A stretch of DNA of 64,000 nucleotides from Succinivibrio dextrinosolvens (GTDB taxonomy: Bacteria; Pseudomonadota; Gammaproteobacteria; Enterobacterales; Succinivibrionaceae), in NCBI RefSeq assembly GCF_011065405.1, contig NZ_CP047056.1, forward strand, positions 2,626,747 to 2,690,746, given 5' to 3'. Positions 31,421 through 63,613 of the stretch are shown piece by piece. A program made the position numbers and the translations under genes. Under the pieces are notes generated by a model that saw nothing but the letters and a program-made list of their open reading frames with translations, was not told the DNA's origin and did no database searches. Numbering within the stretch: position 1 is the stretch's first letter; each line of letters starts with the position of its first letter.

Positions 31421-31427
31421 AAAAAAA

Positions 31428-31475: not shown

Positions 31476-32117
31476 CTATACTCTTATATCCTTAACCTTC
31501 TTGAGAATATCTCTGCAGGCGGCAGTGATAGCTTTATAATCCTCAGCCTTGACCATCTTAGGATCTGGTACAAAGCTTCCGCCTACTGCGGCGACGTTCT
31601 TGAGGCTCAGATACTCTGAGAGGTTATCTAAATTTACTCCACCGGTTGGCACAAACTTGATTGATGCATAAGGTCCTGCCAGAGCCTTCAAGGTCTTAGT
31701 GCCGCCATAGGCTGCTGCTGGGAAGAACTTAACCACTTCCAAACCGAAGTCTAAAGCCTGCTCCAAATCTGATGGGGTTACGGTACCAGGACAGATTGCA
31801 AGCTCATGCTTTAAGCACCAGTCCACAACCTTTGGATTAAAACCTGGGGTAATTACAAACTTGCCGCCGTTATCCAGGGTTGCCCATGCCTGATCAACAT
31901 TGTGAACCGTACCTGAGCCAACCAGCATATTTGGGCATTTCTCGGCCATGATTCTGATTGCCTCAGCAGCTGCTGCTGTTCTGAAGGTAACCTCTGCAAT
32001 AGGAATTCCTCCGTCACATAATGCCTGAGCTAAAGGAGCTGCCTTTTTGGCATCCTCAAGAACAACCAGAGGCACAATTCCTACTGATTCAATCTCGCTT
32101 AAAACTTTAAATTTCAT
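31476..32117 (-). CDS. eda: 2-keto-3-deoxy-6-phosphogluconate aldolase (copy 1)
   Basis: A 213-residue class I aldolase that splits KDPG into pyruvate and glyceraldehyde-3-phosphate. The Schiff-base lysine is Lys130 in VVKFFPA, the catalytic Glu42 lies in AEVTFRT, and GSGTVHN (68-74) and PTGGVN bind phosphate. Last gene of the minus-strand operon, 9 nt after kdgK with AGGAG. The 62982-63623 copy differs visibly only at the residue before EDY (Ala here, Thr there) and in the final residue, DIRV versus DIRS. Confidence 0.95.
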   Translation of the reverse strand: MKFKVLSEIESVGIVPLVVLEDAKKAAPLAQALCDGGIPIAEVTFRTAAAAEAIRIMAEKCPNMLVGSGTVHNVDQAWATLDNGGKFVITPGFNPKVVDWCLKHELAICPGTVTPSDLEQALDFGLEVVKFFPAAAYGGTKTLKALAGPYASIKFVPTGGVNLDNLSEYLSLKNVAAVGGSFVPDPKMVKAEDYKAITAACRDILKKVKDIRV

Positions 32118-33068
32118 CTTTATCTCCTAGAAATCTCTGCGCTTGTGAGAGGCCATGAACTGCTCTAACTGAGCTTTGGTTGGCAGACCTTCATTGTCTC
32201 CTGCGAAGGTACACTGGATTGCACCGATGGCACAGCCACGTTCTACTGCCTTATCAAAATCAAGCCCTTCCATCAGAGCAGAGAGCACTCCTGCTGCAAA
32301 GCCATCTCCAGCTCCTACGGTATCTACAACCTTGTCAATGATAAAGCCGGCAACCTTACCGGTCTTTTCTGGTGTAGCATAATAAGCGCCCTGAGGTCCA
32401 CACTTAACAATAACGCTTGAAGCTCCCAGTTTCTGGTAGAAAGCTGCAATTTTTTCTGGTTCAGATGAACCGCATAAAATGTCTCCCTCACCATCACCAG
32501 GCATTACCAAATCAGCCTTTGAAGCAAGATTATTCAGGGTTTTGACCATCAGCTCCTGTGATTTCCAGAGCTGTGGCCTTAAGTTAGGATCAAAGGAAAT
32601 AAACAATCCTGCCTTGCGACCTAGTTCAATCATTCTGTAGACAGCTTTTAGGGTTGTCTCTGAAAGAGCTGGTGCAATGCCTGTAAGGTGGATGTGGGAG
32701 AATCTTGTAAAATCAATCTGTTCAACATCACTCTCAGAAAGAGTTGATGCGGCAGAACCTGCTCTGAAATAGAAAATCTGGGGATCGCCCTTTGAAACTT
32801 TTCCCTTTAGCATGAAGCCTGTACGCTCTTTTTTTGAATAGCTTACAAGAGAAGAATCAATTCCATTTCCTCTTAGGGTAGATTCAATAAGTTTTCCAAA
32901 AGGATCATCTCCAAGCTTGGTTAAATAGGAAACCTTGTGATTAAGTCTTGAAATTCCAGTTGCAACGTTAAATTCAGCGCCTGCAACTGCCAGAGAATAA
33001 TCCTTAACAGTTTCCAGAGCGCCTTCCTGCTTTGCAATTAAGAGTCCCATTGGCTCTCCTACAAGCAG
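31486..33068. repeat. 1.58-kb inverted repeat, left arm (kdgK-eda)
   Basis: 31486-33068 is the reverse complement of 62031-63613 (coordinates sum to 95099 throughout). Protein comparison shows one amino-acid difference inside the arms, and all DNA stretches I compared, including the intergenic gap, are otherwise identical. Identity stops a few codons after the kdgK start and a few before the eda stop; the flanks are unrelated. Confidence 0.93.
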
Positions 33069-33083
33069 CAAACCTTTTCCCAT
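32127..33083 (-). CDS. kdgK: 2-keto-3-deoxygluconate kinase (copy 1)
   Basis: A 318-residue PfkB-family sugar kinase that phosphorylates 2-keto-3-deoxygluconate at O6 with ATP. Features are the N-terminal GEPMGLL with the substrate pocket following (AGAEFNVATGISRL), SFDPNLRPQLW near 170, characteristic of KdgK, and the anion-hole/catalytic motif DTVGAGDGFAAG near 250 with the base Asp. Begins MGKGLLL, where the second copy has MSKGLLL. Start ATG 33083 follows AGGAG. Lies between uxaA and eda in the operon. Confidence 0.94.
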   Translation of the reverse strand: MGKGLLLVGEPMGLLIAKQEGALETVKDYSLAVAGAEFNVATGISRLNHKVSYLTKLGDDPFGKLIESTLRGNGIDSSLVSYSKKERTGFMLKGKVSKGDPQIFYFRAGSAASTLSESDVEQIDFTRFSHIHLTGIAPALSETTLKAVYRMIELGRKAGLFISFDPNLRPQLWKSQELMVKTLNNLASKADLVMPGDGEGDILCGSSEPEKIAAFYQKLGASSVIVKCGPQGAYYATPEKTGKVAGFIIDKVVDTVGAGDGFAAGVLSALMEGLDFDKAVERGCAIGAIQCTFAGDNEGLPTKAQLEQFMASHKRRDF

Positions 33084-33215
33084 TATGAATGTTCTCCTGA
33101 TTATGTTTTATTTTCGTTATAAATCCTTGAGAGCAAACGCACTGTAAGGGCATGGCGTTTGCTCAAAGTTACCGTTAGACAGTTTTCATAAAGATGCTAT
33201 GTAGCTAGAGGTTTA

Positions 33216-34703
33216 TTAAAGGGTTACACCGTCTTTCCAGATTAAAAGTTCATGGAAATCTCTCTTTTCGGATACTGATTTCTGTCCAGAGGCTATCTTA
33301 ATAATATAATCAAGAAGTTCCTCTGCCAGTTCATCAAAGTCTTTTCCATCCACAATTACACCTGCATTGAAATCAATCCAGTTGCCGCCCTTTTTCTCAT
33401 ATAGGGCATTATTGGTGGAGATTTTAATCGTTGGAACCACGGTGCTGAAAGGTGTTCCTCTTCCAGTGGAGAACAGGATCATATTTACTCCACAGGCTGC
33501 CAGTGCAGAACATGAAACTCCGTCATTGCCAGGAGCATTCAGAAGATTTAAGCCTGATGACTTTACGGTTTCTGCGTATTTAATGGTTCCTTGAACTTCA
33601 GCCTTTCCGCCCTTTTGTACACAGCCTAAGGACTTATCCTCTAAAGTGGTGATGCCTCCAGCCTTGTTGCCTGGAGAAGGGTTCTCTGAAACAGTCTCAC
33701 CATGGGATTTAAAGTAACCTTTAAAGTCATTGATGAGATTTACTGTCTGATTAAAGGTCTCCTCATCTTTTGCACGGTTCATCAGAATCTGTTCTGCTCC
33801 GAACATTTCAGGAACCTCGGTCATAACGGAGGTACCGCCAGAACCTACAATCAGATCGCTTACTCTGCCAATAAGAGGATTTGCGGTTATACCAGACAGA
33901 CCGTCAGAACCGCCACACTTAAGTCCAATTTTCAATTTTGACAGCGGAACAGTCTGTCTTTCTGACAGATTTGCTCTTTCCAGCATGGTGTCGATGATTC
34001 CATAGCCTGCTTCAAGTTCATCCTTGACATCCTGAGTGTTTAAAAACATCAGACGTTCATCGCTGGTATCTAAAAAATTCTTAAAAACATTAAGATTGTT
34101 ATTCTCGCATCCAAGTCCTAAAACCAGCACAGCTCCCGCATTAGGATGACGGGTTAGTGAGGACAGCAACTTCTGGGTGGTTGTCTGATCCTCTCCCATC
34201 TGTGAACAGCCGTAAGGATGAGTCAGAGCATAGCAACCGTCGATGTGTTCATAAGCTGACAGTTTCTCTCTAGCATATGCTTCAAGTTCTTTTGCAATAT
34301 GATTTACACAGAAAACGGTAGGGATAATCCATACTTCATTTCTGATGCCAACCTGACCGTCAGCTCTTACATAACCTTCAAAGGTTCTGTCAACACTCTT
34401 CAGAGCTGACAGAGGCGCCTTGTTATAGGTATATGATTTTGTTCCGGACAGATTAGTTTTTACATTTTCTGAATGTACATGCTGACCTTTACTGATTCTG
34501 CAGGTGGCATGTCCGATTGAATATCCGTATTTAATAATCTGATCGCCTTCATTCAGATCGTGAAGAGCAAACTTGTGTCCACGAGGAATGTCATCTACTA
34601 AAGACACATCTCCTAAGGTGGTTCTTACAGTCTGCCCCTTTTTTAGATCCTCAAGGGCGACAGCGACAACATCCTCTTTAGGATTGATCACTACGCACTG
34701 CAT
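33216..34703 (-). CDS. uxaA: altronate dehydratase
   Basis: A 495-residue UxaA-family enzyme that dehydrates D-altronate to 2-keto-3-deoxygluconate. The N-terminal SAF-like domain (about 1-100) has IPRGHKFAL and IIKYGYSIGHA; the large catalytic domain shows HPYGCSQMGED near 165, GLGCENNN near 195, LKCGGSDGLSGITANP near 290 and TGRGTPFSTVVPTIKISTN near 405. Full length for the family. The gene follows uxaB after 10 nt with AGGAG in front of ATG 34703. A galactarate/altronate dehydratase ambiguity exists, but uxaB next door fixes altronate. Confidence 0.94.
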   Translation of the reverse strand: MQCVVINPKEDVVAVALEDLKKGQTVRTTLGDVSLVDDIPRGHKFALHDLNEGDQIIKYGYSIGHATCRISKGQHVHSENVKTNLSGTKSYTYNKAPLSALKSVDRTFEGYVRADGQVGIRNEVWIIPTVFCVNHIAKELEAYAREKLSAYEHIDGCYALTHPYGCSQMGEDQTTTQKLLSSLTRHPNAGAVLVLGLGCENNNLNVFKNFLDTSDERLMFLNTQDVKDELEAGYGIIDTMLERANLSERQTVPLSKLKIGLKCGGSDGLSGITANPLIGRVSDLIVGSGGTSVMTEVPEMFGAEQILMNRAKDEETFNQTVNLINDFKGYFKSHGETVSENPSPGNKAGGITTLEDKSLGCVQKGGKAEVQGTIKYAETVKSSGLNLLNAPGNDGVSCSALAACGVNMILFSTGRGTPFSTVVPTIKISTNNALYEKKGGNWIDFNAGVIVDGKDFDELAEELLDYIIKIASGQKSVSEKRDFHELLIWKDGVTL

Positions 34704-34713
34704 CTTTTATCTC

Positions 34714-36210
34714 CTAGCATTGTTCCATGGTTGATTTTACGCCATTGGTAACTACGCTGTGAGTTAGTTTTGCAATCAGATCAACATCAAGCTTGCCACA
34801 CAGATCTTCTCCCCAGAGTTTAGCGTCTGAGAGAATTGCTCTGACTGTATTTACGGCAGAATCTTCAGAGTTCTTGTAAAGACTCCATGCTTTTGCCATT
34901 GCTTTTACTGCATACTCGTCATCTTGGAACTGACCGGTTTTGCCGTCAGCTCTTGTTACCTGAACTGGTGAGGTCCCGTCTGAATTTTTATACAGAGCAA
35001 AGAAGGCAGCCAGAGCGAAATACAGCTTTACAGGATGAGTGTTGTTAGCTCTTGCATCAAGGATAGAAGGCAGAACACGTGCTTTTACTTTTGATGTACA
35101 GTTCATCAGAATTGAAGCTAACTGATGGTGCAGGGAAGGATCCATGAATCTGTCAACAACCGCATCGGCAAATTCAGTTAACATTCCCTTATCCAGTTTT
35201 ACTGCAGGGATGATTTCATCATAAATTACGGAACGAGCAAAAGGACCTGTTACAGGGTCTGTCATCATCTGATCAACTGTATCAAGACCTGCAAGGAATG
35301 CTGCTGGTACATTTGAGGTGTGAGCTCCATTCAGAATTCTTACCTTACGCAAACGGTAAGGAGTTATATCAGGTGCAACAACAACATTCAGTCCTGCCTG
35401 CTTTAAAGGAAGCTTGCGGCTGATTTCGTCTGAGCCTTCAATTGCCAGGAAACAAAAATCCTCACCGGTTGACATGAGTGCATCCTCATAGCCAAGTTCC
35501 TTAGCATAGCGCTCCGCATCCGCCTTTGGATAGCCTGATACAACGCGATCTACAAGAGTATTGTAGAATACGCAGTCTTCACACACATAAGCTTTAAACT
35601 CATCGCCTAGGTTCCAGTCATCGGCATGTTTTAGAATTATTTCTTTTAATTTGGTGCCGTTGTTCTCTATAAGCTCACATGGCAGGATATTTAATCCGGC
35701 AACTGAGCAGGCATTATCTGCGCCCTTAAAGGCTTTAAATCTTTCATAAAGCAACTGAGTAAGTTTACCTGGGAAGGACAGTACGCAGCCTACCTTTGGT
35801 AATTCTTCCTTTGTATAAACCAGACCGGCCTCAGTTGTATTGGAGAAGATAAACTCTAGGGTAGGGAGTTTGAAATCCTCTTTAAGTTTTTCAAAGTCAG
35901 CAAGATCATAAGGATTACGTGCTGCTGCTATGGTGTTGATGATTTCAAAGGTTTCTTTGAGTTTTCCGTTTTCTAAACCATGTAGAATAGTTGTAAACAG
36001 GCAGTCCTGTTCTTTTAGTACAGGTACAGTTCTCCCTCTTGGAGTTGGCTGAACAGCAATTAGTCTTCCGTTGAAAAGATTCTGCTTGTTCATACGGTAA
36101 ATCATCCAATCTATAAAGCAGCGAATGAAATTGCCCTCTCCAAACTGAATTGCTTTAACTGGAAGGTCTGATTTGCATTCTGGTTTTAATGCAAGGTTTA
36201 ATTTTGCCAT
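34714..36210 (-). CDS. uxaB: tagaturonate reductase (altronate oxidoreductase)
   Basis: A 498-residue member of the mannitol-dehydrogenase long-chain family, NAD-dependent, reducing D-tagaturonate to D-altronate. The Rossmann-like start is VKAIQFGEGNFIRCFIDWM; SNTTEAG near 130 and RKVRILNGAHTSNVPAAF near 288 (with the active-site Lys/His region) are the UxaB/UxuB signatures. Neighbour uxaA supports UxaB over the fructuronate reductase UxuB. The 96-bp gap to the upstream dehydrogenase gene carries an intercistronic hairpin. No uxaC isomerase gene is in the operon. Confidence 0.93.
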   Translation of the reverse strand: MAKLNLALKPECKSDLPVKAIQFGEGNFIRCFIDWMIYRMNKQNLFNGRLIAVQPTPRGRTVPVLKEQDCLFTTILHGLENGKLKETFEIINTIAAARNPYDLADFEKLKEDFKLPTLEFIFSNTTEAGLVYTKEELPKVGCVLSFPGKLTQLLYERFKAFKGADNACSVAGLNILPCELIENNGTKLKEIILKHADDWNLGDEFKAYVCEDCVFYNTLVDRVVSGYPKADAERYAKELGYEDALMSTGEDFCFLAIEGSDEISRKLPLKQAGLNVVVAPDITPYRLRKVRILNGAHTSNVPAAFLAGLDTVDQMMTDPVTGPFARSVIYDEIIPAVKLDKGMLTEFADAVVDRFMDPSLHHQLASILMNCTSKVKARVLPSILDARANNTHPVKLYFALAAFFALYKNSDGTSPVQVTRADGKTGQFQDDEYAVKAMAKAWSLYKNSEDSAVNTVRAILSDAKLWGEDLCGKLDVDLIAKLTHSVVTNGVKSTMEQC

Positions 36211-36262
36211 TTTTGTTTATGTCCGTTTTGAATTAAATTTAATGTTGTAAATTAAGAAAAAT

Positions 36263-36286
36263 GTCTGCAGTATTGTTGCTGCAGAC
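36263..36286 (-). terminator. intercistronic hairpin between the Zn-dehydrogenase and uxaB genes
   Basis: Stem GTCTGCAG (36263-36270) / CTGCAGAC (36279-36286), with A-rich and T-rich flanks on either side. Inside an operon it likely works as a partial terminator or processing site that sets relative expression of the transport/dehydrogenase part and the uxaB-uxaA-kdgK-eda part. Confidence 0.7.
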
Positions 36287-36306
36287 TTTTTTTATTTGCT
36301 TATTGT

Positions 36307-37338
36307 TTAAGCTGTAAAATCGATTTCAACCTTCAGCATGTCAGCACCGTGAGCAGCAAAATCTGCAAAGGCCTGAGGTGCATCGTCAAGCTTATAGGTA
36401 TTGGTAATAGCCTTTTTTAGGTCTACTTTTCCTGTCTTAACCAGATCGATTAGATTCAGGAAGTCCTTCTTTAGCGCATTTCTTGAGCCGAATACGTTCA
36501 GTTCTTTTTTCTGCAGTAGAGTGAAGTTGAAATCAAGGTTCTTCTTGCCCACACCGATTAGAACTACGTTGGCACCAAAGGCTGCAACGTCGATGGCATT
36601 CTGGAAGGTTGATGGCAGACCGACAGCCTCGATTGCCACATCAAAGCCTTTGTTGTCTGTAATCTTCATGCACTTCTCAACAAAGTCATCTCCGTTGTTG
36701 AAGATTCCCCCGTCAAGATTGAAGCTCTTTACCGCATAGTCAATCTTCTTCTGGGCAACATCTGCAATGTATACGGTTGCACCCTGAGATTTGGCGGCAA
36801 CAGCAGCCAGTGCTCCAATGGTGCCGGCACCGATTACAAGTACCTTATCTCCTTTCTTTACCTGACCACGGGTAACTGCACCATGGTAGCTGATGCAGAA
36901 AGGTTCAATTGCGGCAAGCTCTGCAGGATCCAACCCCTTGCCGTCATAGATACGCTCAAAAGGCATGGTGATGAACTCAGAGAAGGCTCCGTCTCTCTGA
37001 GCGCCCAGAGTCTCATTGTGCTCACAGCAGTTTACAAGTCCGCGTTCACAGGAGTAGCACTTGGTGCAGTTGAAGTAAGGGTTGCAGGTAACAACCATGC
37101 CTTCCTTGAGGCCATATTTGCTGGCATCTCCATTAAGTTTCTCGATTCTTGCAGAAAACTCATGACCAGGAATTCTTGGATATGAGGCATAGGCGAAGGT
37201 GCCTCTGTAGGTACCAAGATCACTTCCACAGATACCGCCACGTAAAACCTTCAGCAGGGCCTCGCCTTCCTTTGGTTCTGGCATTGGGGTATCAATAATT
37301 TTTACTTCACCTGGTTTTGGAATAATAATGGTTTTCAT
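36307..37338 (-). CDS. zinc-dependent alcohol dehydrogenase, probable aldonate 5-dehydrogenase
   Basis: A 343-residue medium-chain dehydrogenase. The catalytic-zinc ligands are the Cys in GGICGSDLG and the His-Glu in IPGHEFS; a structural-zinc cluster lies in NCTKCYSCERGLVNCC. The NAD site is VLVIGAGTIGALAA near 166. It resembles LgoD/YjjN-, RspB- and GutB-type polyol/aldonate dehydrogenases. In E. coli LgoD oxidises L-galactonate to D-tagaturonate, exactly the substrate of UxaB, the next enzyme here; this makes L-galactonate (or a stereoisomer) the likely imported compound. The substrate is inferred from context only. Located between dctM and uxaB. Confidence 0.82.
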   Translation of the reverse strand: MKTIIIPKPGEVKIIDTPMPEPKEGEALLKVLRGGICGSDLGTYRGTFAYASYPRIPGHEFSARIEKLNGDASKYGLKEGMVVTCNPYFNCTKCYSCERGLVNCCEHNETLGAQRDGAFSEFITMPFERIYDGKGLDPAELAAIEPFCISYHGAVTRGQVKKGDKVLVIGAGTIGALAAVAAKSQGATVYIADVAQKKIDYAVKSFNLDGGIFNNGDDFVEKCMKITDNKGFDVAIEAVGLPSTFQNAIDVAAFGANVVLIGVGKKNLDFNFTLLQKKELNVFGSRNALKKDFLNLIDLVKTGKVDLKKAITNTYKLDDAPQAFADFAAHGADMLKVEIDFTA

Positions 37339-37360
37339 AGAAGTTAATCCTTAACAAAAA

Positions 37361-38647
37361 TTAGTAAATCAAGTTAACAAGTCCGGTACTGAAGCCTGGA
37401 ACGAAGGTCAGGAGCAGCAGACAGGTTAGTAATAAAATGTAGAATGGTATAGCCTCTTTGATGAAACGGCCCATAGGACACTTGGTAATAGAGCAGGTCA
37501 CAAACATTAGCGTTCCCATTGGAGGCGAGATTGCACCAAGGGCAAAGTTGAAGATAACCACCATTGCAAAGTGTATTTCGTCTATACCAAAGTGCTTGGC
37601 AAGTGGTGCCAGCAGAGGCACCAGAATAATCATTGCTGCATTGCCTTCGATAAACATGCCTATGATTAACAGGAACAGGTTTACACATAAAAGGAAGATT
37701 ACAGGATTATTCAGATGATCAATGAAAAGACCTGTAAAGTACTGAGGAATTTTTTCCTTGGTTAAAGCCCAGGCAAAGGCAGAAGCTGCTGCAATAATCA
37801 GCATGATAGCTGATGAAGTCAGAACAGTCTCTTTCATGCCACGGATAACATCCTTTAAAGTCATCTCGCGGTAGATCACACCAAGCAGCAGGGAATATAC
37901 AATGGCAACAGATCCTGCTTCTGTTGGTGTAAAGGCACCAATACGAATACCTCCGATAATAATGACTGGTAGACATAAAGGCAGGAATGCTCCTCGGAAG
38001 GTCCTAAAGATACGCTTCTTTGAGGTATCCACCTTGACAGGACTTCTGTAACCTCTCTTGTAGGAAACAAGTCCGACTAACAGCATTAGGGAAACGCAGA
38101 GAATGATACCTGGTCCAATACCAGCAACGAACAGTTTACCGATTGAGACGTTGGCAATTGAACCATAGATAATCATTGCGATTCCTGGAGGAATCAGAGG
38201 GGTGATAATTGCAGAAGTTGCAACCAGAACAGAACCGAATGCCTTTGAGAATCCTCTTTTTTCCATTTCTGGAACCAGCATCTTTGCTTCCATGGCTGCA
38301 TCTGCCAGGTTTGAACCTGAAAGTCCACCCATCAGAGTTGCAACGAGAACGGTAACATGGCCGATTCCGCCGATAACGTTTCCTACTATGGACTCACAGA
38401 AATCCACGATTCTCTTGGTTACACCAGTGTAGTTCATGAAAACACCGGCACATACGAAGAATGGTATGGCCAGCAGTGGAATTGACTGTGAACCTGCCAG
38501 AACTCTCTGTGCCAGAATTACAGAGTTGATTTCTGAATGCAAGGCAAAGTAAGTTGCTGCTGCTCCAAGTATGGAGATAAATACAGGAACCTTTAAAAAC
38601 AGGAAAATCAACAGCAGGAGTGAGGCAAGACCAATAGCAAAATCCAT
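37361..38647 (-). CDS. dctM: TRAP transporter large permease subunit
   Basis: A 428-residue membrane protein with about 12 hydrophobic segments, the DctM/SiaM-type ion-coupled permease of a tripartite (TRAP) system. Family motifs are FFVCAGVFMNYTG near 62, GGLSGSNLADAAMEAKML near 108 and FNFALGAISPPMGT near 363. It starts 2 nt after the dctQ stop, with GGAGG before ATG 38647, so the two are translationally linked. Import of an organic or sugar acid is driven by a sodium or proton gradient. Confidence 0.93.
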   Translation of the reverse strand: MDFAIGLASLLLLIFLFLKVPVFISILGAAATYFALHSEINSVILAQRVLAGSQSIPLLAIPFFVCAGVFMNYTGVTKRIVDFCESIVGNVIGGIGHVTVLVATLMGGLSGSNLADAAMEAKMLVPEMEKRGFSKAFGSVLVATSAIITPLIPPGIAMIIYGSIANVSIGKLFVAGIGPGIILCVSLMLLVGLVSYKRGYRSPVKVDTSKKRIFRTFRGAFLPLCLPVIIIGGIRIGAFTPTEAGSVAIVYSLLLGVIYREMTLKDVIRGMKETVLTSSAIMLIIAAASAFAWALTKEKIPQYFTGLFIDHLNNPVIFLLCVNLFLLIIGMFIEGNAAMIILVPLLAPLAKHFGIDEIHFAMVVIFNFALGAISPPMGTLMFVTCSITKCPMGRFIKEAIPFYILLLTCLLLLTFVPGFSTGLVNLIY

Positions 38648-38649
38648 GA

Positions 38650-39162
38650 TTACTCCTCCTTGTTTGAAGCTTCAGTATGCTCATCACCCTTGGTTTCCTC
38701 ATCTTTTTTCATGAAGAAGGTGGCGTAGGTGAGAGATACCATCATCAGTACACAGCATACAGGGATAATGCCGTTGATGAAGTAAAAAGGAACATGAAGA
38801 ATGGAAGTTGATTTTCCAATCTTCATCATCAGTTTAATGATGTCGCAGCCTAAAAATCCAAGATAACCTAAAACTACCATGCAGATTACATAATCCATTT
38901 TCTCAATGAATTTCTGGAGTTTTTGAGGAAATAGACTGACCACCATTTCAACTGCAACATGACTGCCGTGTCTGAATGCGGCTCCGGCTCCTAGGAAGGT
39001 CATCCACAGGAAGCACCACAGCTGTACTTCTTCGGCCCAGATTATAGGTTTGCCTACAAAGTAGCGCATGATTACTCCGCCGAAGGTTACTGTAACCAGA
39101 ATAGCCAGAGCGACAGCAGCTAGGAGCAGATCCATATTAACGATAATATTAGATTTCTTCAT
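38650..39162 (-). CDS. dctQ: TRAP transporter small permease subunit
   Basis: A 170-residue protein with four hydrophobic helices and the DctQ-type segment IIWAEEVQLWCFLWMTFLGA near 40-60. It pairs with DctM in the inner membrane and helps dock the periplasmic binding protein. The C-terminal tail (KKDEETKGDEHTEAS) is acidic and hydrophilic. It follows dctP after 70 nt containing a perfect hairpin. Confidence 0.9.
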   Translation of the reverse strand: MKKSNIIVNMDLLLAAVALAILVTVTFGGVIMRYFVGKPIIWAEEVQLWCFLWMTFLGAGAAFRHGSHVAVEMVVSLFPQKLQKFIEKMDYVICMVVLGYLGFLGCDIIKLMMKIGKSTSILHVPFYFINGIIPVCCVLMMVSLTYATFFMKKDEETKGDEHTEASNKEE

Positions 39163-39198
39163 ATTTATTTGATAATTTATGGTGTTAATGGAAAGAAA

Positions 39199-39226
39199 AA
39201 CAGGACCGCATGAGGTCGGTCCTGTT
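39199..39226 (-). terminator. intercistronic hairpin between dctP and dctQ
   Basis: Perfect 10-bp stem AACAGGACCG (39199-39208) / CGGTCCTGTT (39217-39226) with an 8-nt loop, and an A-rich left flank giving U residues on the minus strand. A leaky terminator here would make the binding protein more abundant than the permeases, a common arrangement for solute-binding-protein systems. Confidence 0.82.
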
Positions 39227-39232
39227 GAATCG

Positions 39233-40243
39233 TTACTGCATTGCTTTCTTTACAGTATCGTACAGACCAGGAGTCCAATCTTTGAAATCAGGAAGTGAAT
39301 AGAACTTCTTTGAGGTCTCAACCAGAGTCTTCTTGAATTCAGGAGATGGATCAACAATAGTTACACCTTCTGCCTTGAATTTAGCAAGAATATCTGCCTC
39401 GGAATCTTCTACAATCTTGTTCTGGTACAGACCTGCTTCATGACAGGTTTCAACTAGAAGCTTCTGCTGTTCAGGAGTCAGAGAGTTATAGAAATCAGTG
39501 CCAACAACCAGGTTGGTGATGTTGAATACATGGCCATCTAGTAACAGGTATTTAGCAACCTCGTGGAACTTTCCGTTGTATAGAACTGCAAGTGGGTTTT
39601 CTACACCGTCAATGGTTCCCTGCTGCAGAGAGGTATAAACCTCACCTAAAGCCATAGGGGTAGGAGTTGCACCTAGAACTTCAAAGCCCTTTACCTGAAT
39701 GTTGTTTGTAGGAACACGAATCTTCATGCCCTTGAAATCTTCAACCTTGTTGATTGGTTTTGTGGTTAGAGTATGACGTGCACCATACTTCCAATCAGCG
39801 CCGATAATCTTAAGATGTGCGTTCTCTTCAACCAGCTTTGACTGATCCTGATACCACTGGCTTGCGTTAAGCTTGAATGCCTGATCCCAGTTATCAAAGA
39901 GGAATGGGCCAAATACAATACCCATATCCTTTACACCACGGTCATAGAAGAATGCGCCGTCAGTCAGTGTACATACAGGCTCACCTGCAACCATCTGATC
40001 CATTACGTCGTCCTTTGAACCTAACTGAGATGAAGGATACAGCTCAATCTTGAACTTACCGCCTGAACGCTCCTCAATCAGCTCCTTCCACTTGTGGCAG
40101 CCTAAATCAAATGGCTCACCTGGGTTGTTGCCGTATCCTACACGCAGAACTACAGTATCATCTGCAGAAGCTGCTGATGCGCCAATGGTCATAACTGCAG
40201 CAAGACATGCTGCCAGAGTTGCTTTGGTTAGTATATTTTTCAT
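39233..40243 (-). CDS. dctP: TRAP transporter substrate-binding protein
   Basis: A 336-residue periplasmic protein. The signal peptide (about 1-27) ends GASAASA-DD. The DctP family signature includes the helix GEVYTSLQQGTIDGVENP near 203-220 and the substrate-carboxylate arginine in FKGMKIRVPT near 168-177. First gene of the transport-catabolic operon, preceded by a sigma-54 promoter. The encoded protein is clearly different from the DctP at 63718, so the two systems bind different ligands. The pathway genes suggest an aldonate or uronate. Confidence 0.92.
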   Translation of the reverse strand: MKNILTKATLAACLAAVMTIGASAASADDTVVLRVGYGNNPGEPFDLGCHKWKELIEERSGGKFKIELYPSSQLGSKDDVMDQMVAGEPVCTLTDGAFFYDRGVKDMGIVFGPFLFDNWDQAFKLNASQWYQDQSKLVEENAHLKIIGADWKYGARHTLTTKPINKVEDFKGMKIRVPTNNIQVKGFEVLGATPTPMALGEVYTSLQQGTIDGVENPLAVLYNGKFHEVAKYLLLDGHVFNITNLVVGTDFYNSLTPEQQKLLVETCHEAGLYQNKIVEDSEADILAKFKAEGVTIVDPSPEFKKTLVETSKKFYSLPDFKDWTPGLYDTVKKAMQ

Positions 40244-40321: not shown

Positions 40322-40337
40322 AGCAACGTTTATGCCA
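40322..40337 (-). promoter_or_regulatory. sigma-54 (-24/-12) promoter of the dctP-uxa-kdg operon
   Basis: On the minus strand TGGCATAAACGTTGCT, matching the -24 GG and -12 GC elements with correct spacing. It lies about 80 bp before the dctP start. The PrpR-type sigma-54 activator gene is next upstream. Confidence 0.82.
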
Positions 40338-40465: not shown

Positions 40466-42322
40466 TTAATTGCTGAGCTCTAGCTGTTTTAATTTCTTCC
40501 ATAGTGTACTTCTTGAGATACCTGCAAGCTTTGCTATTTCCGTGTTGTTGTGTCTGGCGAGCATATATTTATAGTAGTACTTTTCCAGTTCTTCCATGGT
40601 TAAATCATCTCTGAAAATAGAACTGGATGAGTTGTGGTTTGCACTCATTCCTGTGATGTTCCTATGGAGTATTCTTTCAACGTTCTGCTTTTTGATTTCG
40701 CTTCCGAAAAAGGACAGTGCTTCTGCAACGTTGCGTAGTTCTCTTACGTTACCAGGCCAGTTGTAGTTTAAAAGCATCTTCTGAACATCATCATCTATGA
40801 ATATATCATCAGGCTTCTTTTTACAGAATTCTGCTATGAAAGCCCTGAACATAATGATGATATCATCGCCGCGTTCGCGAAGTGGGGGAATCGACAGACT
40901 CAGTACATTAAGACGATAGTAGAGATCGTATCTGAATTTTCCTTCTTCACACAAAGTAAGAATATCTTTGTTTGTGGCACATATGATACGTATATCCAGA
41001 GGAATGATCCTGTCATCTCCGATACGCATTATTTCTCTTTCCTGAATTACACGCAGAAACTGACTCTGCACTTCTAGAGGGATCTCTGTTATCTCATCAA
41101 GGAAGATGGAGCCTCCCTGTGCAAGTTCAAACAAACCTTTCTTTCCGTTACGTCTAGCTCCAGTAAAAGCTCCCTCCACATAACCAAAGAGCTCGGAGGC
41201 TACAAGTCCTTGAGGCAGGGAAGCACAGTTTACTGAAACGAACGGTTTGTTTGCCCGAGGGGAAGAATTATGAATACTCTGGGCAAAGCCTTCCTTACCA
41301 GCACCTGTTTCTCCGAAGATCATGACGGTCGAATCGGAGTTTGCAAAACGTTTAGCTAAGGATACTGTATCCTCCATGGCAGGGCATGAGAAGATAATGT
41401 CATTAAAGTTATGTCTTGCGTAAAGCCCCTTTTCGTAGGAAGAAATCTTAATGTTCTTAGCTGTTTCTTCGATAGCGGTACTGTCCTGAAGGATCACAAC
41501 CTTATCTTCATGAGAATCGTGAGCAAGTGAGATAACTCTTATAAGAATTTTATTCTGGTTTAATGTAATCACTCTGGAAGTATCTGAACTGGAGTTAATT
41601 TCATTTTCAAGGACCTTGTACCATCTGTCGATTGGTTCTGGTCTCATGATTCTGCCTGCATATTCATTGTACAGAATAGGTGTGTTTTCTGAATCAAATA
41701 TGACTACGCCTTCTTCAATATTGTTTAAAAGCGACTCAAGTCTATCAATGGTTCTTTCTTGATTATCAAGATTCTTTTCTAGTTCTAATGCCTGAAGAAT
41801 TCCTTTTTTTACAGAAAAGAAATCTACTTCAACTGGTGATATTTCTACGGCATACTGTCTTGCAGTTTCAATTGCAACAACACAGCCCACAATGCCGTCT
41901 GCTCCGTCTTTGATACAGGAGTTTACGGTATTCATGATTTCTTCGGTATTAGAGCAGGGATGCAGTTCAACTTCAATATCGTTTATTGCAAATTCAGCAG
42001 GAGTTGGTCCGATTACATTATCCTGGCTTACCACTGCAATTTTTCTGCAGCCTTTGGCTATAAGTTCATTTAAAGATTTCTGAATATCAAAAAATGATGC
42101 GGTTAGGTCTACAACGGTAAGTCCTTTCACGCCTTTAAGGTAATTCGCTGTGCCACCTCTGCTGATTGCAATATGACAGGAAGGGAATTTTCTTAAAGCT
42201 TCTATAGCCTTGTAATCATATGCCTCTATTACTGGAATGTTAAGTTTCAGCTGTGAGACTGCACTTTGTGCCAGAACAGCTATGTGAGTATTTGGGGCTA
42301 TAAAAACTATAGAATCTTTCAT
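40466..42322 (-). CDS. PrpR-type sigma-54-dependent transcriptional activator (copy 1)
   Basis: A 618-residue enhancer-binding protein. The N-terminal about 180 residues are a PrpR-type ligand-sensing domain; a PAS-like segment (IEEGVVIFDSENTPILYNEYA) spans about 200-290; the AAA+ core has Walker A GETGAGKEG (337-345), the sigma-54 contact loop GAFTGA (384-389) and GGSIFLDEI (Walker B); a Fis-type HTH (EIAKLAGISRSTLWKKLKQL) closes the protein. It should activate the sigma-54 promoter of the downstream dctP operon, probably on sensing a sugar acid. Same direction as the operon, 222-bp gap. Strongly similar to the 59644 protein in the core, less so in the sensor domain. Confidence 0.92.
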   Translation of the reverse strand: MKDSIVFIAPNTHIAVLAQSAVSQLKLNIPVIEAYDYKAIEALRKFPSCHIAISRGGTANYLKGVKGLTVVDLTASFFDIQKSLNELIAKGCRKIAVVSQDNVIGPTPAEFAINDIEVELHPCSNTEEIMNTVNSCIKDGADGIVGCVVAIETARQYAVEISPVEVDFFSVKKGILQALELEKNLDNQERTIDRLESLLNNIEEGVVIFDSENTPILYNEYAGRIMRPEPIDRWYKVLENEINSSSDTSRVITLNQNKILIRVISLAHDSHEDKVVILQDSTAIEETAKNIKISSYEKGLYARHNFNDIIFSCPAMEDTVSLAKRFANSDSTVMIFGETGAGKEGFAQSIHNSSPRANKPFVSVNCASLPQGLVASELFGYVEGAFTGARRNGKKGLFELAQGGSIFLDEITEIPLEVQSQFLRVIQEREIMRIGDDRIIPLDIRIICATNKDILTLCEEGKFRYDLYYRLNVLSLSIPPLRERGDDIIIMFRAFIAEFCKKKPDDIFIDDDVQKMLLNYNWPGNVRELRNVAEALSFFGSEIKKQNVERILHRNITGMSANHNSSSSIFRDDLTMEELEKYYYKYMLARHNNTEIAKLAGISRSTLWKKLKQLELSN

Positions 42323-56678: not shown

Positions 56679-56696
56679 TTAAAAGGAGTTACGATT

Positions 56697-57554: not shown

Positions 57555-57566
57555 CTGGTTTGTATT

Positions 57567-58445
57567 ATGAAAAAAATAGTTGTTGCAGGAAGTCTAAATT
57601 ACGACATTTTTGTTGAGGCTCCTAGAAGACCTTTAAAAGGTGAAACTTTAACTGGTTACAAATGGTATCCAAAATTTGGAGGTAAAGGCGGTAATCAGGC
57701 TTTATCTGCAGCCAAATGCGGTTGTAACGTTATTATGGTAGGTGCCTTAGGTAACGATAGCTTTGGTAAATCCATGCGTAATGTTTTAACTTCGCATAAG
57801 GTTGATACTTCTTATCTTCAGAACTGTGAAAAAACAGGCTCAGGTATTTCTGTTGCTATCATGGATGATGATGGCGACTACGGAGCTGTTATTGTTGGTG
57901 GTGCAAACGTTCAGATTGATAATAGCGTTTTTTCGAATGAGACTCTATGGAAGGACGTAGGAATGCTAATCCTGCAGAATGAAGTTGCTGAAGAAACAAA
58001 TCTTATTGCCGCAAGAGAAGCAAAAAAACGTGGAATAAAAGTCTGCATAAATGCTGCTCCAGTTAAGGTTATGAATCCTGAACTCCTCAAAATGATAGAT
58101 ATCCTTGTGGTAAATGAAGTAGAAGCGACATCTATATGTAAAATCAAGGTTGATAGCTTACATTCTGCATTGGATGCCTGCTTACAGCTTGTAAAAGATT
58201 TCCCTTATGTTGTGGTTACTGCAGGCGGTAATGGAGTTGCATATGCAGCATCAGATGGATCTAAAGGAACGGTAGAAGCTCTTAAGATTACACTGATTAG
58301 TACACATGGGGCTGGTGATTGCTTTGTTGGAGCTCTATGTTCAAGACTTGTAAACAACGAATCTATTGCTGAGTCAGTGATTTTTGCAAATAAAATTGCA
58401 GCAGAACATGTATCAACAACCCACGAAGATCTTGTCTTAAACTAG
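57567..58445 (+). CDS. PfkB-family sugar kinase, ribokinase-like
   Basis: A 292-residue kinase. The N-terminal GSLNYDIFVEAPRRPLKGETL and GGKGGNQALSAAKCG (about 40-54) are the ribokinase signature; the C-terminal catalytic motif is STHGAGDCFVGAL near 253 with the base Asp. It probably phosphorylates the imported sugar, giving the ligand of the RpiR regulator. Slightly shorter than E. coli RbsK (309). Last gene of the operon, followed by a terminator. Ribose is possible, but no rpiA or rbsD is present. Confidence 0.88.
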   Translation: MKKIVVAGSLNYDIFVEAPRRPLKGETLTGYKWYPKFGGKGGNQALSAAKCGCNVIMVGALGNDSFGKSMRNVLTSHKVDTSYLQNCEKTGSGISVAIMDDDGDYGAVIVGGANVQIDNSVFSNETLWKDVGMLILQNEVAEETNLIAAREAKKRGIKVCINAAPVKVMNPELLKMIDILVVNEVEATSICKIKVDSLHSALDACLQLVKDFPYVVVTAGGNGVAYAASDGSKGTVEALKITLISTHGAGDCFVGALCSRLVNNESIAESVIFANKIAAEHVSTTHEDLVLN

Positions 58446-58470
58446 TCTATATCATTAGTAAACTCTATTT

Positions 58471-58496
58471 GGCTCTATTTTCGGAGCCTTTTTTTT
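58471..58496 (+). terminator. intrinsic terminator of the sugar ABC operon
   Basis: GGCTC (58471-58475) / GAGCC (58484-58488) followed by eight T, 26 nt after the kinase stop. The next 400 bp (to 58899) are AT-rich and show no other supportable feature. Confidence 0.8.
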
Positions 58497-58899
58497 GTTT
58501 ACCTTAATCTCTCTGGAAAAAATTTCCATGCAATAAATTTTTGTAACTACTCAGAACGGTAGCACGCAAAAAAATTGTTTTGAGTATTTTGACTGACTTT
58601 TACAGTCAGATTGTTCTTTTAGAATTTACATTGTGAATTGTCTCACATTCCTAATCAAAATGCTTTTTTCTTTGCATTTACCAGGAATAGCCCATATTGC
58701 TCATATAACGCGAATACAGCGATGTTGTTTTGAAGTGCTTTGTTTTGTCATTTTGACTGCTAATCGATCTGTAGCGATCTGCTCAGATCCTTCTCGATCA
58801 TTTTGAAGCACATGGTGTACCTCTGATTTCTATGACGAAAAGTGCTGAAATTCAGGATGTTATAATTACATCAGTAATAATAACAATTGGGAATTTGCT

Positions 58900-59355
58900 G
58901 TGGATTTAAAGGAACTGAAAAAGCAGGTAGACAAAATAACATTGGAGCTTAAGAACAAAGCTTCAGACGAACTGTCGCCTTTAATTGAATCACAGTCAGT
59001 TCTGATAAATGTAATTTTGGAAATGAGCACAGGTATTCTAGCTCAGAATGAAAGACTTACAGCAACGATAACTGATTTGCAGGAAAACATAAAAGAGCTG
59101 CGCGGACAGTTGAATATGGATTCCCATAACAGTTCAAAACCACCATCAAGTGACGGTTATAAGAAGCCAAATAAGGCAAGAAGTCTGAGAAAGCCAACAG
59201 GCAGAAAGCCAGGTGGGCAGAAATGACACAGTGGAGCGAACATGGAGGTACCTCATAAGCCTGATGAGGTAAAGAAACATCAGCCCAATAAATGTATGAT
59301 CTGCCCTCATTTTGCCTCATGCGCTGCAAACGGAAAGGTATTTGAGAGAAGCCTT
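58900..59355 (+). pseudogene. IS66 TnpC N-terminal fragment with nonsense mutation
   Basis: The frame from GTG 58900 encodes a coiled-coil N-terminus (ELKKQVDKITLELKNKA), the IS66 block LNMDSHNSSKPPSSDGYKKP and RKPTGRKPGGQK, then TGA (59224-59226) where a glycine codon is expected. The same frame goes on with HSGANMEVPHKPDEV and the zinc-finger-like CMICPHFASC, then homology ends at about 59350. A GGA-to-TGA change plus 3' truncation by an IS200/IS605 end explains the remains. Confidence 0.85.
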
Positions 59356-59643: not shown

Positions 59644-61527
59644 ATGAAGGATTCAATTGTATTTTTTGCTCCAAATTCAAGAATAGCGGCTTTAGCTACA
59701 AATGCCATCTCTCAGTTAAATCTTTCAATTCCTGTTGAAGAAGCTATTGACTATGAGGCTGTGGAGCTTCTGCACAAGTATCCTTCATGCAAAATTGCTA
59801 TCAGTAGAAGTGGTACAGCTGATCTGCTTCGCGGTGTAAAGGGAATATCTGTTGTTGATATAACAGCCTCATATTATGAGATCCAAAAGGGGATCAGTAA
59901 CCTAGTGGATAAGCACTGCAAGAACATCAGTGTGATTAGTCAGTCTAACTTCATCGGACTTACTCATGCAGAGTTTAGTCTTGGTGATGTAAAGGTAACA
60001 CTCAATCCCTGTAAAAATACAGAAGATATAATTTCAACCGTTGAACGTCGTGTGTATAGCGGAGCTGACGGTGTACTAGGCTGTGTTCTGGCAATTGAAA
60101 CAGCAAAATCTTATAACGTGATTGTAGAACCTCTTGAATCAGATTTTTTCTCTGTAAAAAGGGTAATTCTGCAGGCTTTGGAAATGCTTGGATACCTAAA
60201 TATCAGTCAGAAGAATTTTGAGTGTATGGAGACAGTTCTGGATAATATTGATGAAGGTGTGATTTTCTTTGATTCAGAAAACAATCCTGCTATATACAAC
60301 GAATCTGCCTTAAAACTGATGCAGCCTGAATCCAAGGAGCAGTGGTTTCATAAGCTTGAAGAACATATGAATAGGGCAAACAGTGTTCCGAGAGTAGTAA
60401 GCCTCAACCAGAACAAGGTGCTGTTCCGTAATATTCCTTTATCTGGAAATGAGTTTATTTCGGGAGACAAGCCTAGCAGTAATGTGGTCATAATGCAGGA
60501 CAGTACTGCAATCGAGGAATCTGCTAAGAATATTAAGATTTCAACATATGAAAAAGGTCTTTTTGCCCGCCGTTCCTTTAAGGATATAAGATTTGAATCT
60601 CTGGTAATGGATGATGCAGTGGCTCTGGCTAAACGCTTTTCCAATTCTGATTCTACTGTAATGCTTTTTGGTGAAACCGGTGTGGGTAAGGAAGGTTTTG
60701 CCCAGAGTATTCATAACAATTCTCCACGTGCTAAAAAGCCATTCGTGTCGGTCAACTGTGCCTCTCTTCCTCAGGGACTGGTAGCTTCAGAACTGTTCGG
60801 TTATGCAGAAGGCGCTTTTACCGGTGCCCGCAGTTCCGGAAAAAAAGGCCTGTTTGAGCTGGCCCAGGGAGGAACCATATTTTTAGATGAGATAACGGAG
60901 ATCCCTCTTGAGGTTCAGAGTCAGTTTCTGCGTGTGATACAGGAGCGTGAGGTTATGCGTATCGGAGATGATCGCATTATTCCTTTGGACATCCGTATCA
61001 TATGTGCCTCTAATAAAAGAATTCTGCCACTGTGTGAAAAAGGTTTATTCCGATACGATCTTTACTACAGACTCAATGTTTTGCAGCTGACTATTCCTCC
61101 GCTGCGTGAGCGCGGCAGAGATGTTCTCGTTCTGTTTAAGACATTTATGGCGGAATTTCTTCATAAAAATGAAGATGAGATTAAATTTGACGATGACGTA
61201 AAATCTGTCCTTATGAGTTATTCTTGGCCTGGTAATGTTCGTGAACTTAGAAATTTTGCCGAGGCGATGTCTTTTTATGGAGACGAAATAAAAAGTTCTA
61301 ATGTTCTAAATATCTTAAATCATGACAAGGAAGTTATTTCATCAGACACTGATAATTCAAATCACTCTTTGAACTTTAAGGATAATATGCCGCTCTCTGA
61401 GATCGAAAGGGAATATTATCGTTATATGCTTGAACGCCATTCTAATGCTGAAGTTGCAAAGCTGGCTGGGATTTCAAGAACCTCCCTGTGGAGAAAACTT
61501 AAAACTCTTGGCTTAAGTGATCAGTAA
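59644..61527 (+). CDS. PrpR-type sigma-54-dependent transcriptional activator (copy 2)
   Basis: A 627-residue paralogue of the regulator at 40466-42322 with the same domain order: PrpR-type sensor (about 1-180), PAS-like segment (IDEGVIFFDSENNPAIYNESA), AAA+ core with GETGVGKEG, GAFTGA and GGTIFLDEI, and a C-terminal Fis-type HTH (AEVAKLAGISRTSLWRKLKTL). The sensor half differs more than the core, which suggests another inducer. It is followed by a candidate operator and a sigma-54 promoter that lead into kdgK-eda and a TRAP gene on the same strand. ATG 59644 follows AAAAGGCG. Confidence 0.92.
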   Translation: MKDSIVFFAPNSRIAALATNAISQLNLSIPVEEAIDYEAVELLHKYPSCKIAISRSGTADLLRGVKGISVVDITASYYEIQKGISNLVDKHCKNISVISQSNFIGLTHAEFSLGDVKVTLNPCKNTEDIISTVERRVYSGADGVLGCVLAIETAKSYNVIVEPLESDFFSVKRVILQALEMLGYLNISQKNFECMETVLDNIDEGVIFFDSENNPAIYNESALKLMQPESKEQWFHKLEEHMNRANSVPRVVSLNQNKVLFRNIPLSGNEFISGDKPSSNVVIMQDSTAIEESAKNIKISTYEKGLFARRSFKDIRFESLVMDDAVALAKRFSNSDSTVMLFGETGVGKEGFAQSIHNNSPRAKKPFVSVNCASLPQGLVASELFGYAEGAFTGARSSGKKGLFELAQGGTIFLDEITEIPLEVQSQFLRVIQEREVMRIGDDRIIPLDIRIICASNKRILPLCEKGLFRYDLYYRLNVLQLTIPPLRERGRDVLVLFKTFMAEFLHKNEDEIKFDDDVKSVLMSYSWPGNVRELRNFAEAMSFYGDEIKSSNVLNILNHDKEVISSDTDNSNHSLNFKDNMPLSEIEREYYRYMLERHSNAEVAKLAGISRTSLWRKLKTLGLSDQ

Positions 61528-61676: not shown

Positions 61677-61692
61677 TGGCACAATCGTTGCT
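61677..61692 (+). promoter_or_regulatory. sigma-54 (-24/-12) promoter of the second kdg operon
   Basis: TGGCACAATCGTTGCT fits the consensus closely, with GG at -24, GC at -12 and right spacing. About 325 bp of leader separate it from kdgK; this leader (61700-62015) has no gene and no strong hairpin that I can support. Confidence 0.88.
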
Positions 61693-62015
61693 ACTATGGA
61701 AGTATAAAAATTATTTATTAGAACCACATGTAAAAGAGTAGCAATGAAACAAACATCCATCACAACATCAGAAGAATTCAAATATAAATATCATCTATTA
61801 CTGTTTAGAATAAAGCTGAAACAGGCTTAACACACTTATATTTATGTGAAAAAGCCTTAAAAGTTTATCAGGCTGAAAACGCATGTACGTGCAGCAGAAA
61901 ATTTCAGCACTTAGATCTTGAAAAGAACAGAAATAAAGCCTGGCAGGTAAATCAGGCAATACAGATAAAAATAATAATCAATTATAGTTTTAGAAAAAGG
62001 GTATAGGAGTATTTT

Positions 62016-62972
62016 ATGTCAAAAGGGTTACTGCTTGTAGGAGAGCCAATGGGACTCTTAATTGCAAAGCAGGAAGGCGCTCTGGAAACTGTTAAGGATT
62101 ATTCTCTGGCAGTTGCAGGCGCTGAATTTAACGTTGCAACTGGAATTTCAAGACTTAATCACAAGGTTTCCTATTTAACCAAGCTTGGAGATGATCCTTT
62201 TGGAAAACTTATTGAATCTACCCTAAGAGGAAATGGAATTGATTCTTCTCTTGTAAGCTATTCAAAAAAAGAGCGTACAGGCTTCATGCTAAAGGGAAAA
62301 GTTTCAAAGGGCGATCCCCAGATTTTCTATTTCAGAGCAGGTTCTGCCGCATCAACTCTTTCTGAGAGTGATGTTGAACAGATTGATTTTACAAGATTCT
62401 CCCACATCCACCTTACAGGCATTGCACCAGCTCTTTCAGAGACAACCCTAAAAGCTGTCTACAGAATGATTGAACTAGGTCGCAAGGCAGGATTGTTTAT
62501 TTCCTTTGATCCTAACTTAAGGCCACAGCTCTGGAAATCACAGGAGCTGATGGTCAAAACCCTGAATAATCTTGCTTCAAAGGCTGATTTGGTAATGCCT
62601 GGTGATGGTGAGGGAGACATTTTATGCGGTTCATCTGAACCAGAAAAAATTGCAGCTTTCTACCAGAAACTGGGAGCTTCAAGCGTTATTGTTAAGTGTG
62701 GACCTCAGGGCGCTTATTATGCTACACCAGAAAAGACCGGTAAGGTTGCCGGCTTTATCATTGACAAGGTTGTAGATACCGTAGGAGCTGGAGATGGCTT
62801 TGCAGCAGGAGTGCTCTCTGCTCTGATGGAAGGGCTTGATTTTGATAAGGCAGTAGAACGTGGCTGTGCCATCGGTGCAATCCAGTGTACCTTCGCAGGA
62901 GACAATGAAGGTCTGCCAACCAAAGCTCAGTTAGAGCAGTTCATGGCCTCTCACAAGCGCAGAGATTTCTAG
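62016..62972 (+). CDS. kdgK: 2-keto-3-deoxygluconate kinase (copy 2)
   Basis: The 318-residue product matches the copy at 32127-33083 except at residue 2 (Ser instead of Gly). Same PfkB features, including SFDPNLRPQLW and DTVGAGDGFAAG. Its upstream region and ribosome-binding site (TAGGAG) are unrelated to those of copy 1. First gene after the sigma-54 promoter, so in this cluster KDG phosphorylation is the first step provided. Enzymes that make KDG must lie beyond the window or be shared with the other operon. Confidence 0.94.
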   Translation: MSKGLLLVGEPMGLLIAKQEGALETVKDYSLAVAGAEFNVATGISRLNHKVSYLTKLGDDPFGKLIESTLRGNGIDSSLVSYSKKERTGFMLKGKVSKGDPQIFYFRAGSAASTLSESDVEQIDFTRFSHIHLTGIAPALSETTLKAVYRMIELGRKAGLFISFDPNLRPQLWKSQELMVKTLNNLASKADLVMPGDGEGDILCGSSEPEKIAAFYQKLGASSVIVKCGPQGAYYATPEKTGKVAGFIIDKVVDTVGAGDGFAAGVLSALMEGLDFDKAVERGCAIGAIQCTFAGDNEGLPTKAQLEQFMASHKRRDF

Positions 62973-63613
62973 GAGATAAAGATGAAATTTAAAGTTTTAA
63001 GCGAGATTGAATCAGTAGGAATTGTGCCTCTGGTTGTTCTTGAGGATGCCAAAAAGGCAGCTCCTTTAGCTCAGGCATTATGTGACGGAGGAATTCCTAT
63101 TGCAGAGGTTACCTTCAGAACAGCAGCAGCTGCTGAGGCAATCAGAATCATGGCCGAGAAATGCCCAAATATGCTGGTTGGCTCAGGTACGGTTCACAAT
63201 GTTGATCAGGCATGGGCAACCCTGGATAACGGCGGCAAGTTTGTAATTACCCCAGGTTTTAATCCAAAGGTTGTGGACTGGTGCTTAAAGCATGAGCTTG
63301 CAATCTGTCCTGGTACCGTAACCCCATCAGATTTGGAGCAGGCTTTAGACTTCGGTTTGGAAGTGGTTAAGTTCTTCCCAGCAGCAGCCTATGGCGGCAC
63401 TAAGACCTTGAAGGCTCTGGCAGGTCCTTATGCTTCAATCAAGTTTGTGCCAACCGGTGGAGTAAATTTAGATAACCTCTCAGAGTATCTGAGCCTCAAG
63501 AACGTCGCCGCAGTAGGCGGAAGCTTTGTACCAGACCCTAAGATGGTCAAGACTGAGGATTATAAAGCTATCACTGCTGCCTGCAGAGATATTCTCAAGA
63601 AGGTTAAGGATAT
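62031..63613. repeat. 1.58-kb inverted repeat, right arm (kdgK-eda)
   Basis: Mirror of 31486-33068. The identical tract begins at CTGCTTGTAGG five codons into kdgK and ends at AAGGATAT near the eda 3' end, covering the coding sequences but not the promoters or terminators. This shape is what gene conversion between two functional copies would leave. Confidence 0.93.

Follow-up and report, generated by a model that had tools for sequence, protein, structure and literature searches.

We analysed a 64,000-nucleotide stretch of the Succinivibrio dextrinosolvens genome (hereafter the window; C1:2626747-2690746) in which two hexuronate operons each carry a kdgK-eda gene pair, for 2-keto-3-deoxygluconate (KDG) kinase and 2-keto-3-deoxy-6-phosphogluconate (KDPG) aldolase. 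This genome, G000, consists of a single contig of 3,468,545 bases. Operon A (31476-42322, minus strand) runs from a regulator through DctP, DctQ, DctM, a zinc-type dehydrogenase, a tagaturonate reductase and an altronate-dehydratase-like protein to KdgK and Eda. Operon B (from 59644 to beyond the window, plus strand) also starts with a regulator, followed by KdgK, Eda, DctP, DctQ, DctM, UxaC (glucuronate isomerase), UxuA (mannonate dehydratase) and a UxuB-like protein, and lies past the window from DctP onwards. The fructuronate-reductase-like UxuB scored 130.9 bits against a cut-off of 603, and the DctQ of operon B, with no family match at 1e-20, is named from its position. Each operon has its own PrpR-type sigma-54 regulator, tripartite ATP-independent periplasmic (TRAP) transporter and kdgK-eda pair. 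Operon A reads as the galacturonate/altronate branch and operon B as the glucuronate/mannonate branch; PMC6353982 describes the hexuronate branches as converging on KDG, with KdgK and the aldolase common to both.

The two pairs, termed the A copy (31476-33083, minus strand) and the B copy (62016-63623, plus strand), were compared at the level of single bases. Self-comparison of the window revealed an inverted match between 31482-33078 (minus strand) and 62021-63617 (plus strand), 1597 bp long with 99.5% identity, 8 mismatches and no gaps, beyond which similarity ends. Of these mismatches, two fall in kdgK (codons 4 and 5) and six in eda, five of them within codons 148-199 and one in codon 211. 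A preliminary description of this DNA had reported near-identical, inverted kdgK-eda arms set in two operons with unlike flanking genes and promoters, with identity ending close to the kdgK start and the eda stop, and all of this was borne out. It had also reported that such DNA of the arms as it compared matched. This holds for a run of 1394 bp without any difference (Table 1), but not for the whole, as base-by-base alignment of 31486-33068 with 62031-63613 gave five differences, all in eda. Four of these are silent and the fifth is the single residue change already described, Ala191 in the A copy and Thr191 in the B copy. Overall, the two copies are 99.6% identical in kdgK and 98.6% in eda. 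Searching G000 for kdgK gave two matches at E <= 1e-60 out of seven candidates, and two DNA matches to the arm; no third kdgK match was found by either search. One further, distant relative of eda (38%) is present in the genome.

The comparison of silent divergence with the neighbouring regulators, which the preliminary description had proposed, set the two pairs clearly apart. The two PrpR-type regulators share about 75% identity over 0.63 kb, and across their full length silent sites are saturated (proportion of synonymous differences, pS, 0.77), against a synonymous divergence (dS) between the arms of 0.009 in kdgK and 0.040 in eda. The two regulators behave as ordinary old paralogues.

A search for kdgK in 60 genomes including G000 (E <= 1e-60) gave two matches in G000 and in 4 of the 59 others (G003, a metagenome bin; G004, S. 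dextrinosolvens ACV-10; G010, S. dextrinosolvens DSM 3072; and G011), one match in 16 and none in 39. Gene context places one kdgK in operon A and one in operon B in each of these four relatives. Both operons lie on one contig in G010 and G004, where they are divergent with the regulators inside, as in G000; they are on separate contigs in G003 and G011. The kdgK-eda pair follows uxaA in operon A of all five relatives that are readable there (G003, G004, G005, G010, G011). Within the relatives, A and B kdgK share 69.6-71.6% nucleotide identity (4 of 4) and A and B eda 80.3-82.5% (three compared directly). G003 was included in the tree and in the dS counts, and was left out of the eda identity range; its B eda has an in-frame stop (L009:426-1061, codon 31), which may be an assembly error. 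The dS between A and B kdgK is 1.83, 1.92, 2.03 and 2.21 in the relatives and 0.009 in G000, and that between A and B eda is 0.70, 0.92, 1.07 and 1.12 as opposed to 0.040. Among the copies compared, the closest to the G000 pair reach at most 86.2% in kdgK (the nearest other B copy) and 92.6% in eda, so that the paralogues within G000 are closer to each other than to their orthologues. A two-copy layout with divergence in related genomes had been named beforehand as an argument against recent copying or conversion. Such a layout does occur, and in this context it marks G000 as the genome that was overwritten.

Phylogenetic analysis gave the same picture. In the kdgK tree one clade (support 96/95) unites the four A copies of the relatives with G005_A. 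The sequences G000_A and G000_B pair with each other (100/100) and fall within the B clade (100/98). The A and B kdgK of the remaining four two-copy genomes form separate clades, and the duplication is therefore older than the similarity seen in G000. The A/B split may also be older than the G005 line: the kdgK tree places it so (96/95), but an approximately unbiased (AU) test did not reject the alternative (p 0.058). The two G000 copies are likewise sisters in the eda tree (100/99), adjoining G011_B, although its inner order is otherwise weakly supported, with 5 of 12 inner branches drawn open. Trees constrained to keep all five A-locus copies in one clade were worse by 93 log units for kdgK (AU p 1.6e-6) and by 54 for eda (AU p 2.1e-4), and were rejected in both cases.

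The extent of the B-type sequence was read from sites that tell A from B and from alignment of its edges. At 98 such sites in kdgK, G000_A carries 75 B, 14 A and 9 other states and G000_B 76 B, 14 A and 8 other; at 21 such sites in eda each G000 copy carries 17 B, 3 A and 1 other. Upstream, G000_A has an A-type ribosome-binding region and A-like codons 2-4 of kdgK, with the B-type sequence starting between codons 5 and 8. Downstream, it continues to the last codons of eda, where an A-type terminator follows. All 10 A/B-telling sites after eda codon 199 are B in both G000 copies, and the tract thus reaches the end of eda. Locus-specific A-type flanks are therefore present on both sides of a B-type body, which indicates that a diverged A copy was overwritten by B. 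The recipient type has been lost, both kdgK copies of G000 falling in the B clade, as in a non-reciprocal transfer. By sequence comparison, the replaced stretch appears to be exactly that which A and B share.

Table 1 Features of the two hexuronate operons in the window (positions from the first base of the window).
Feature	Position	Strand	Basis or remark
Terminator-like hairpin and T run after A eda	31421..31450	-	A-type flank kept; as in A operons of relatives
eda (KDPG aldolase), operon A	31476..32117	-	TIGR01182 above cut-off; Aldolase domain
Late eda with all five inner differences	31521..31674		Putative older tract or patchy repair; base comparison, clustering, site recount
Identical tract	31675..33068		Probable most recent conversion tract; partner 62031-63424; base comparison
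kdgK, operon A	32127..33083	-	PfkB domain; NCBIfam KDG/KDGal kinase 182.6 of 400 bits (below cut-off); family and context indicate a 2-keto-3-deoxygluconate kinase
Hairpin between uxaA and kdgK	33131..33164	-	A-type flank kept; A operons of all 4 relatives folded have a hairpin of different sequence in this position
uxaA-like altronate dehydratase, operon A	33216..34703	-	TIGR03248 galactarate dehydratase 290 of 730.85 bits (below cut-off); name by context
uxaB-like tagaturonate reductase, operon A	34714..36210	-	NF002969 above cut-off
Zinc-type alcohol dehydrogenase, operon A	36307..37338	-	Below cut-offs of all families listed
TRAP transporter DctM, DctQ, DctP, operon A	37361..40243	-	Family matches; DctQ below cut-off
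Sigma-54-like promoter site before operon A dctP	40323..40337	-	One mismatch; G010 and G004 have a similar site 93-95 bp ahead of dctP
PrpR_N / sigma-54 activator, operon A regulator by position	40466..42322	-	Domains
PrpR_N / sigma-54 activator, operon B regulator by position	59644..61527	+	Domains
Sigma-54-like promoter site before operon B kdgK	61677..61691	+	Sole perfect match in window; like site in G010 and G004
kdgK, operon B	62016..62972	+	Probable donor; base comparison, identity, tree
eda, operon B	62982..63623	+	Probable donor; base comparison, identity, tree

These comparisons establish an old two-copy layout, divergence of the two copies in relatives, a B-type body within A-type flanks and near-identity in G000. 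It is therefore likely (probability roughly 0.9) that the kdgK-eda pair of operon B was copied over that of operon A by intragenomic gene conversion. We regard the locus as a well-resolved case of ordinary gene conversion, the mechanism of which is already known. Since both branches converge on 2-keto-3-deoxygluconate, each of the two hexuronate operons inherited by Succinivibrio would have had a kdgK-eda pair of its own, and the A and B pairs would have drifted to about 71% identity in kdgK and 80-83% in eda. Homologous recombination in the G000 lineage, presumably RecA-dependent, would then have copied the B pair onto the A pair, in one direction only, from the first kdgK codons to the last eda codons, where the shared sequence ends. 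The ribosome-binding site, intergenic hairpin, terminator, promoter and neighbours of operon A would have stayed in place. The exchange may have started in eda, the site of the longest exact A-B matches in the four relatives (24-35 bp; in G011 a match close to the kdgK 3' end is equally long). At least one later event may then have made kdgK and the initial two-thirds of eda equal once more. The genes recA, mutS and mutL are present without stops in G000, with matches of mutS and mutL above cut-offs. Loss of mismatch repair was accordingly rejected as a cause.

The alternative first raised for this locus, recent copying or conversion, can now be divided. A recent duplication, in which an operon A without kdgK-eda gained a fresh copy of the operon B pair, would explain the near-identity of the arms. 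However, kdgK-eda follows uxaA in the A operons of all the readable relatives, and G000_A keeps the A-type ribosome-binding site, early codons, hairpin and terminator in place, so that the coding part alone became B-type. We consider fresh copying highly unlikely, and it is the conversion half of the earlier suggestion that is supported. An assembly artefact, that is a collapsed repeat written twice, must be weighed since the case comes from assembled sequence alone. The arms nevertheless differ at five inner sites and have locus-specific ends, and an A-type kdgK at about 71% identity would not be expected to collapse with B; the probability of such an artefact is close to negligible.

Import from another Succinivibrio by homologous recombination, either of a hybrid A operon or of a B-type kdgK-eda, was also considered, as operons of this type look exchanged between species: G010_A and G003_A are 92% identical in kdgK, while their B copies are only 76.5% identical. 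Similarly, a block of operon B that begins at the eda stop and extends to the middle of dctM matches G010 and G011 at mostly 97-100% identity. The 1394 bp identical to the strain's own B copy, compared with 86.2% in kdgK of the nearest other B copy, argue against an outside source, and we judge import to be very improbable. The block in question (63620-65840, continuing in L003) includes single windows down to 92-95%. Compared with G010 and G011, kdgK, eda, later dctM and uxuB of operon B are lower, and the starts of uxaC and uxuA are also at 97-100%. This block may reflect either exchange between species or strong constraint.

Several observations weigh against gene conversion from B to A, or limit what can be said of it. 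A strain that has mutS and mutL would be expected to exchange genes of 71-83% identity only rarely. In the tuf model, as set out in the part of PMC5485169 that deals with it, conversion reaching the gene ends aborts, and tracts that reach both ends of homology are not favoured. Thirteen of the 98 kdgK and 3 of the 21 eda telling sites carry the A state in both G000 copies, and the B-type copy is therefore itself not pure. When binned, the A-like kdgK sites form no single clear block. These shared sites go beyond a single B-to-A event and may reflect convergence or older A-to-B patches. Finally, with G000 as the sole genome of its species in the comparison, the timing is given only as recent relative to species-level divergence.

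Whether one event or several took place was assessed from the distribution of the differences. All five inner differences fall within 154 bp, a clustering obtained at a frequency of 3e-4 in 200,000 random draws over 1545 bp, in a test made post hoc. We lean slightly towards two or more conversion events, the favoured order being an older event over the whole pair and a later one that would have covered kdgK to about eda codon 147. A single event with patchy mismatch repair in late eda is quite plausible too, if somewhat short of even odds: at four of the five cluster sites the G000_A base is also found in at least one of the four A copies (some of these bases also occur in B copies). The cluster itself says little, since just two of the strict A/B-telling sites fall within it, and both copies have the B state at one and the A state at the other. 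Patchy repair would require a switch out of B and back, however, as the 10 telling sites past the cluster are B in both copies. In addition, the base behind Thr191 was seen only in the B copy among 11 rows compared, so that at least this difference is a new mutation. A G010- or G011-like strain as the import source of the eda cluster was rejected, as G000_B is identical to neither there.

The suggestion that conversion is continuing receives partial support from the clustered differences, which are consistent with two or more events in this lineage. It does not extend to the genus, because the four two-copy relatives keep A and B kdgK well apart. Nor do we claim an earlier conversion, confined to eda, that would have preceded the divergence of the two-copy species. 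Although the dS values fit such an event (A-B eda within relatives 0.70-1.12, against 1.85-2.87 to G005, with kdgK high both ways), the tree test leaves a clade of eda A and G005 standing (AU p 0.16).

The arms were also proposed to be able to drive inversion of the 29-kb segment between them. As inverted 1.6-kb repeats 29 kb apart they are a possible substrate, and inversion is conceivable in principle, but there is no sign of it: G000, G010 and G004, the three genomes in which a single contig carries both operons, all have the same divergent layout and hence one orientation. No uxaA-kdgK-eda-dctP(B) junction was found among the 33 loci laid out, and the arms contain only kdgK and eda and no recombinase gene. 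An invertible switch that swaps the operon tails is thus extremely unlikely, although rare inversion of the segment may occur. The distance from kdgK to kdgK is 28.9 kb in G000, 18.3 kb in G010 and 15.4 kb in G004. Between the two regulators of G000 (42853-59226) lie transposase-type genes together with a sugar ABC operon, which includes an RpiR-type regulator and a PfkB kinase.

A wider, joint reading would see conversion as a ratchet: the conserved eda would allow strand exchange that runs into the drifted kdgK, the equal pair would then be kept equal, and a single evolving enzyme module would serve two separately regulated operons where their pathways join, with the arms at times perhaps inverting the 29 kb and swapping the operon tails. 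We regard this as speculative and on balance unlikely.

Both regulators have PrpR_N and sigma-54 activation domains, with HTH_8 above the cut-off in A and just below it in B. Over the window 37 sigma-54-like matches were found against 43 expected by chance, i.e. no enrichment. Support for the two promoter sites in Table 1 therefore comes from their position and from the like sites in G010 and G004. A second uxaB-uxaA pair occurs in S. dextrinosolvens DSM 3072 (L031:14850-17841), on the strand opposite to the operon B regulator, and is closer to the uxaBA of G000 operon A than DSM 3072's own operon A copy is. The end of a like uxaB-uxaA pair is found at the same place in G011 (L035:1-225).

Other repeats were noticed in the window. 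Two direct repeats of 740 bp (13833-14572 and 16939-17678), 100% identical, flank an open reading frame for a DDE transposase (14765-16843). The first holds an HSP20 gene, as does the second by its identity. Among the 18 other genomes of the genus a close HSP20 copy occurs once each in G003 (93%) and G004 (92%), and the doubling in G000 therefore looks recent. A further inverted pair (11571-13169 and 42877-44472), about 75% identical, encodes AAA-ATPase-like/PDDEXK_9 proteins, as judged from the domains of the second copy.

The tuf genes are translation genes whose copies stay near-identical; unlike these, the two-gene catabolic modules of Succinivibrio would have drifted to 71-83% before one overwrote the other. 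The sections of PMC5485169 on Salmonella describe tuf gene conversion as bounded by the gene ends, and both cases share non-reciprocal copying between two chromosomal paralogues, limited by the ends of the shared sequence. The match between the replaced and the shared stretch fits conversion limited by the bounds of homology in this way. Long-lasting concerted evolution of prokaryotic paralogues is reported for 26 genes in PMC6053082. As described there, in-genome copies are closer than orthologues and genes of the same pathway are often affected together, as at our locus; unlike those cases, kdgK-eda was equalised in one of five genomes with both copies and not over long times across the genus. 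The main text of PMC6053082 contains no words beginning with 'aldolase' or 'kinase', and a search of one open-access library found no account of gene conversion in the kdgK-eda pair or in Succinivibrio. Like conversion between the rRNA operons of E. coli, that described here homogenised dispersed copies in one chromosome, but it affects a protein-coding pair in unlike operons rather than RNA genes in many copies. The reactions are those of the E. coli hexuronate isomerase pathway, where, in the part of PMC6353982 on this pathway, the branches similarly join at KDG and share KdgK and the aldolase. There, kdgK and eda are in no uxa or uxu operon, whereas each Succinivibrio operon carries its own pair.

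No new mechanism is implied. What the locus offers is a polarised conversion of a catabolic gene pair in which donor, recipient, both tract ends and the unconverted state in relatives can all be read. Paralogous pairs with identities of about 71% in the first gene and 80-83% in the second can, it appears, be equalised again in a single lineage. Trees of kdgK or eda in Succinivibrio need not track the history of the operons. For the organism, the outcome would be two differently controlled operons with almost the same enzymes.

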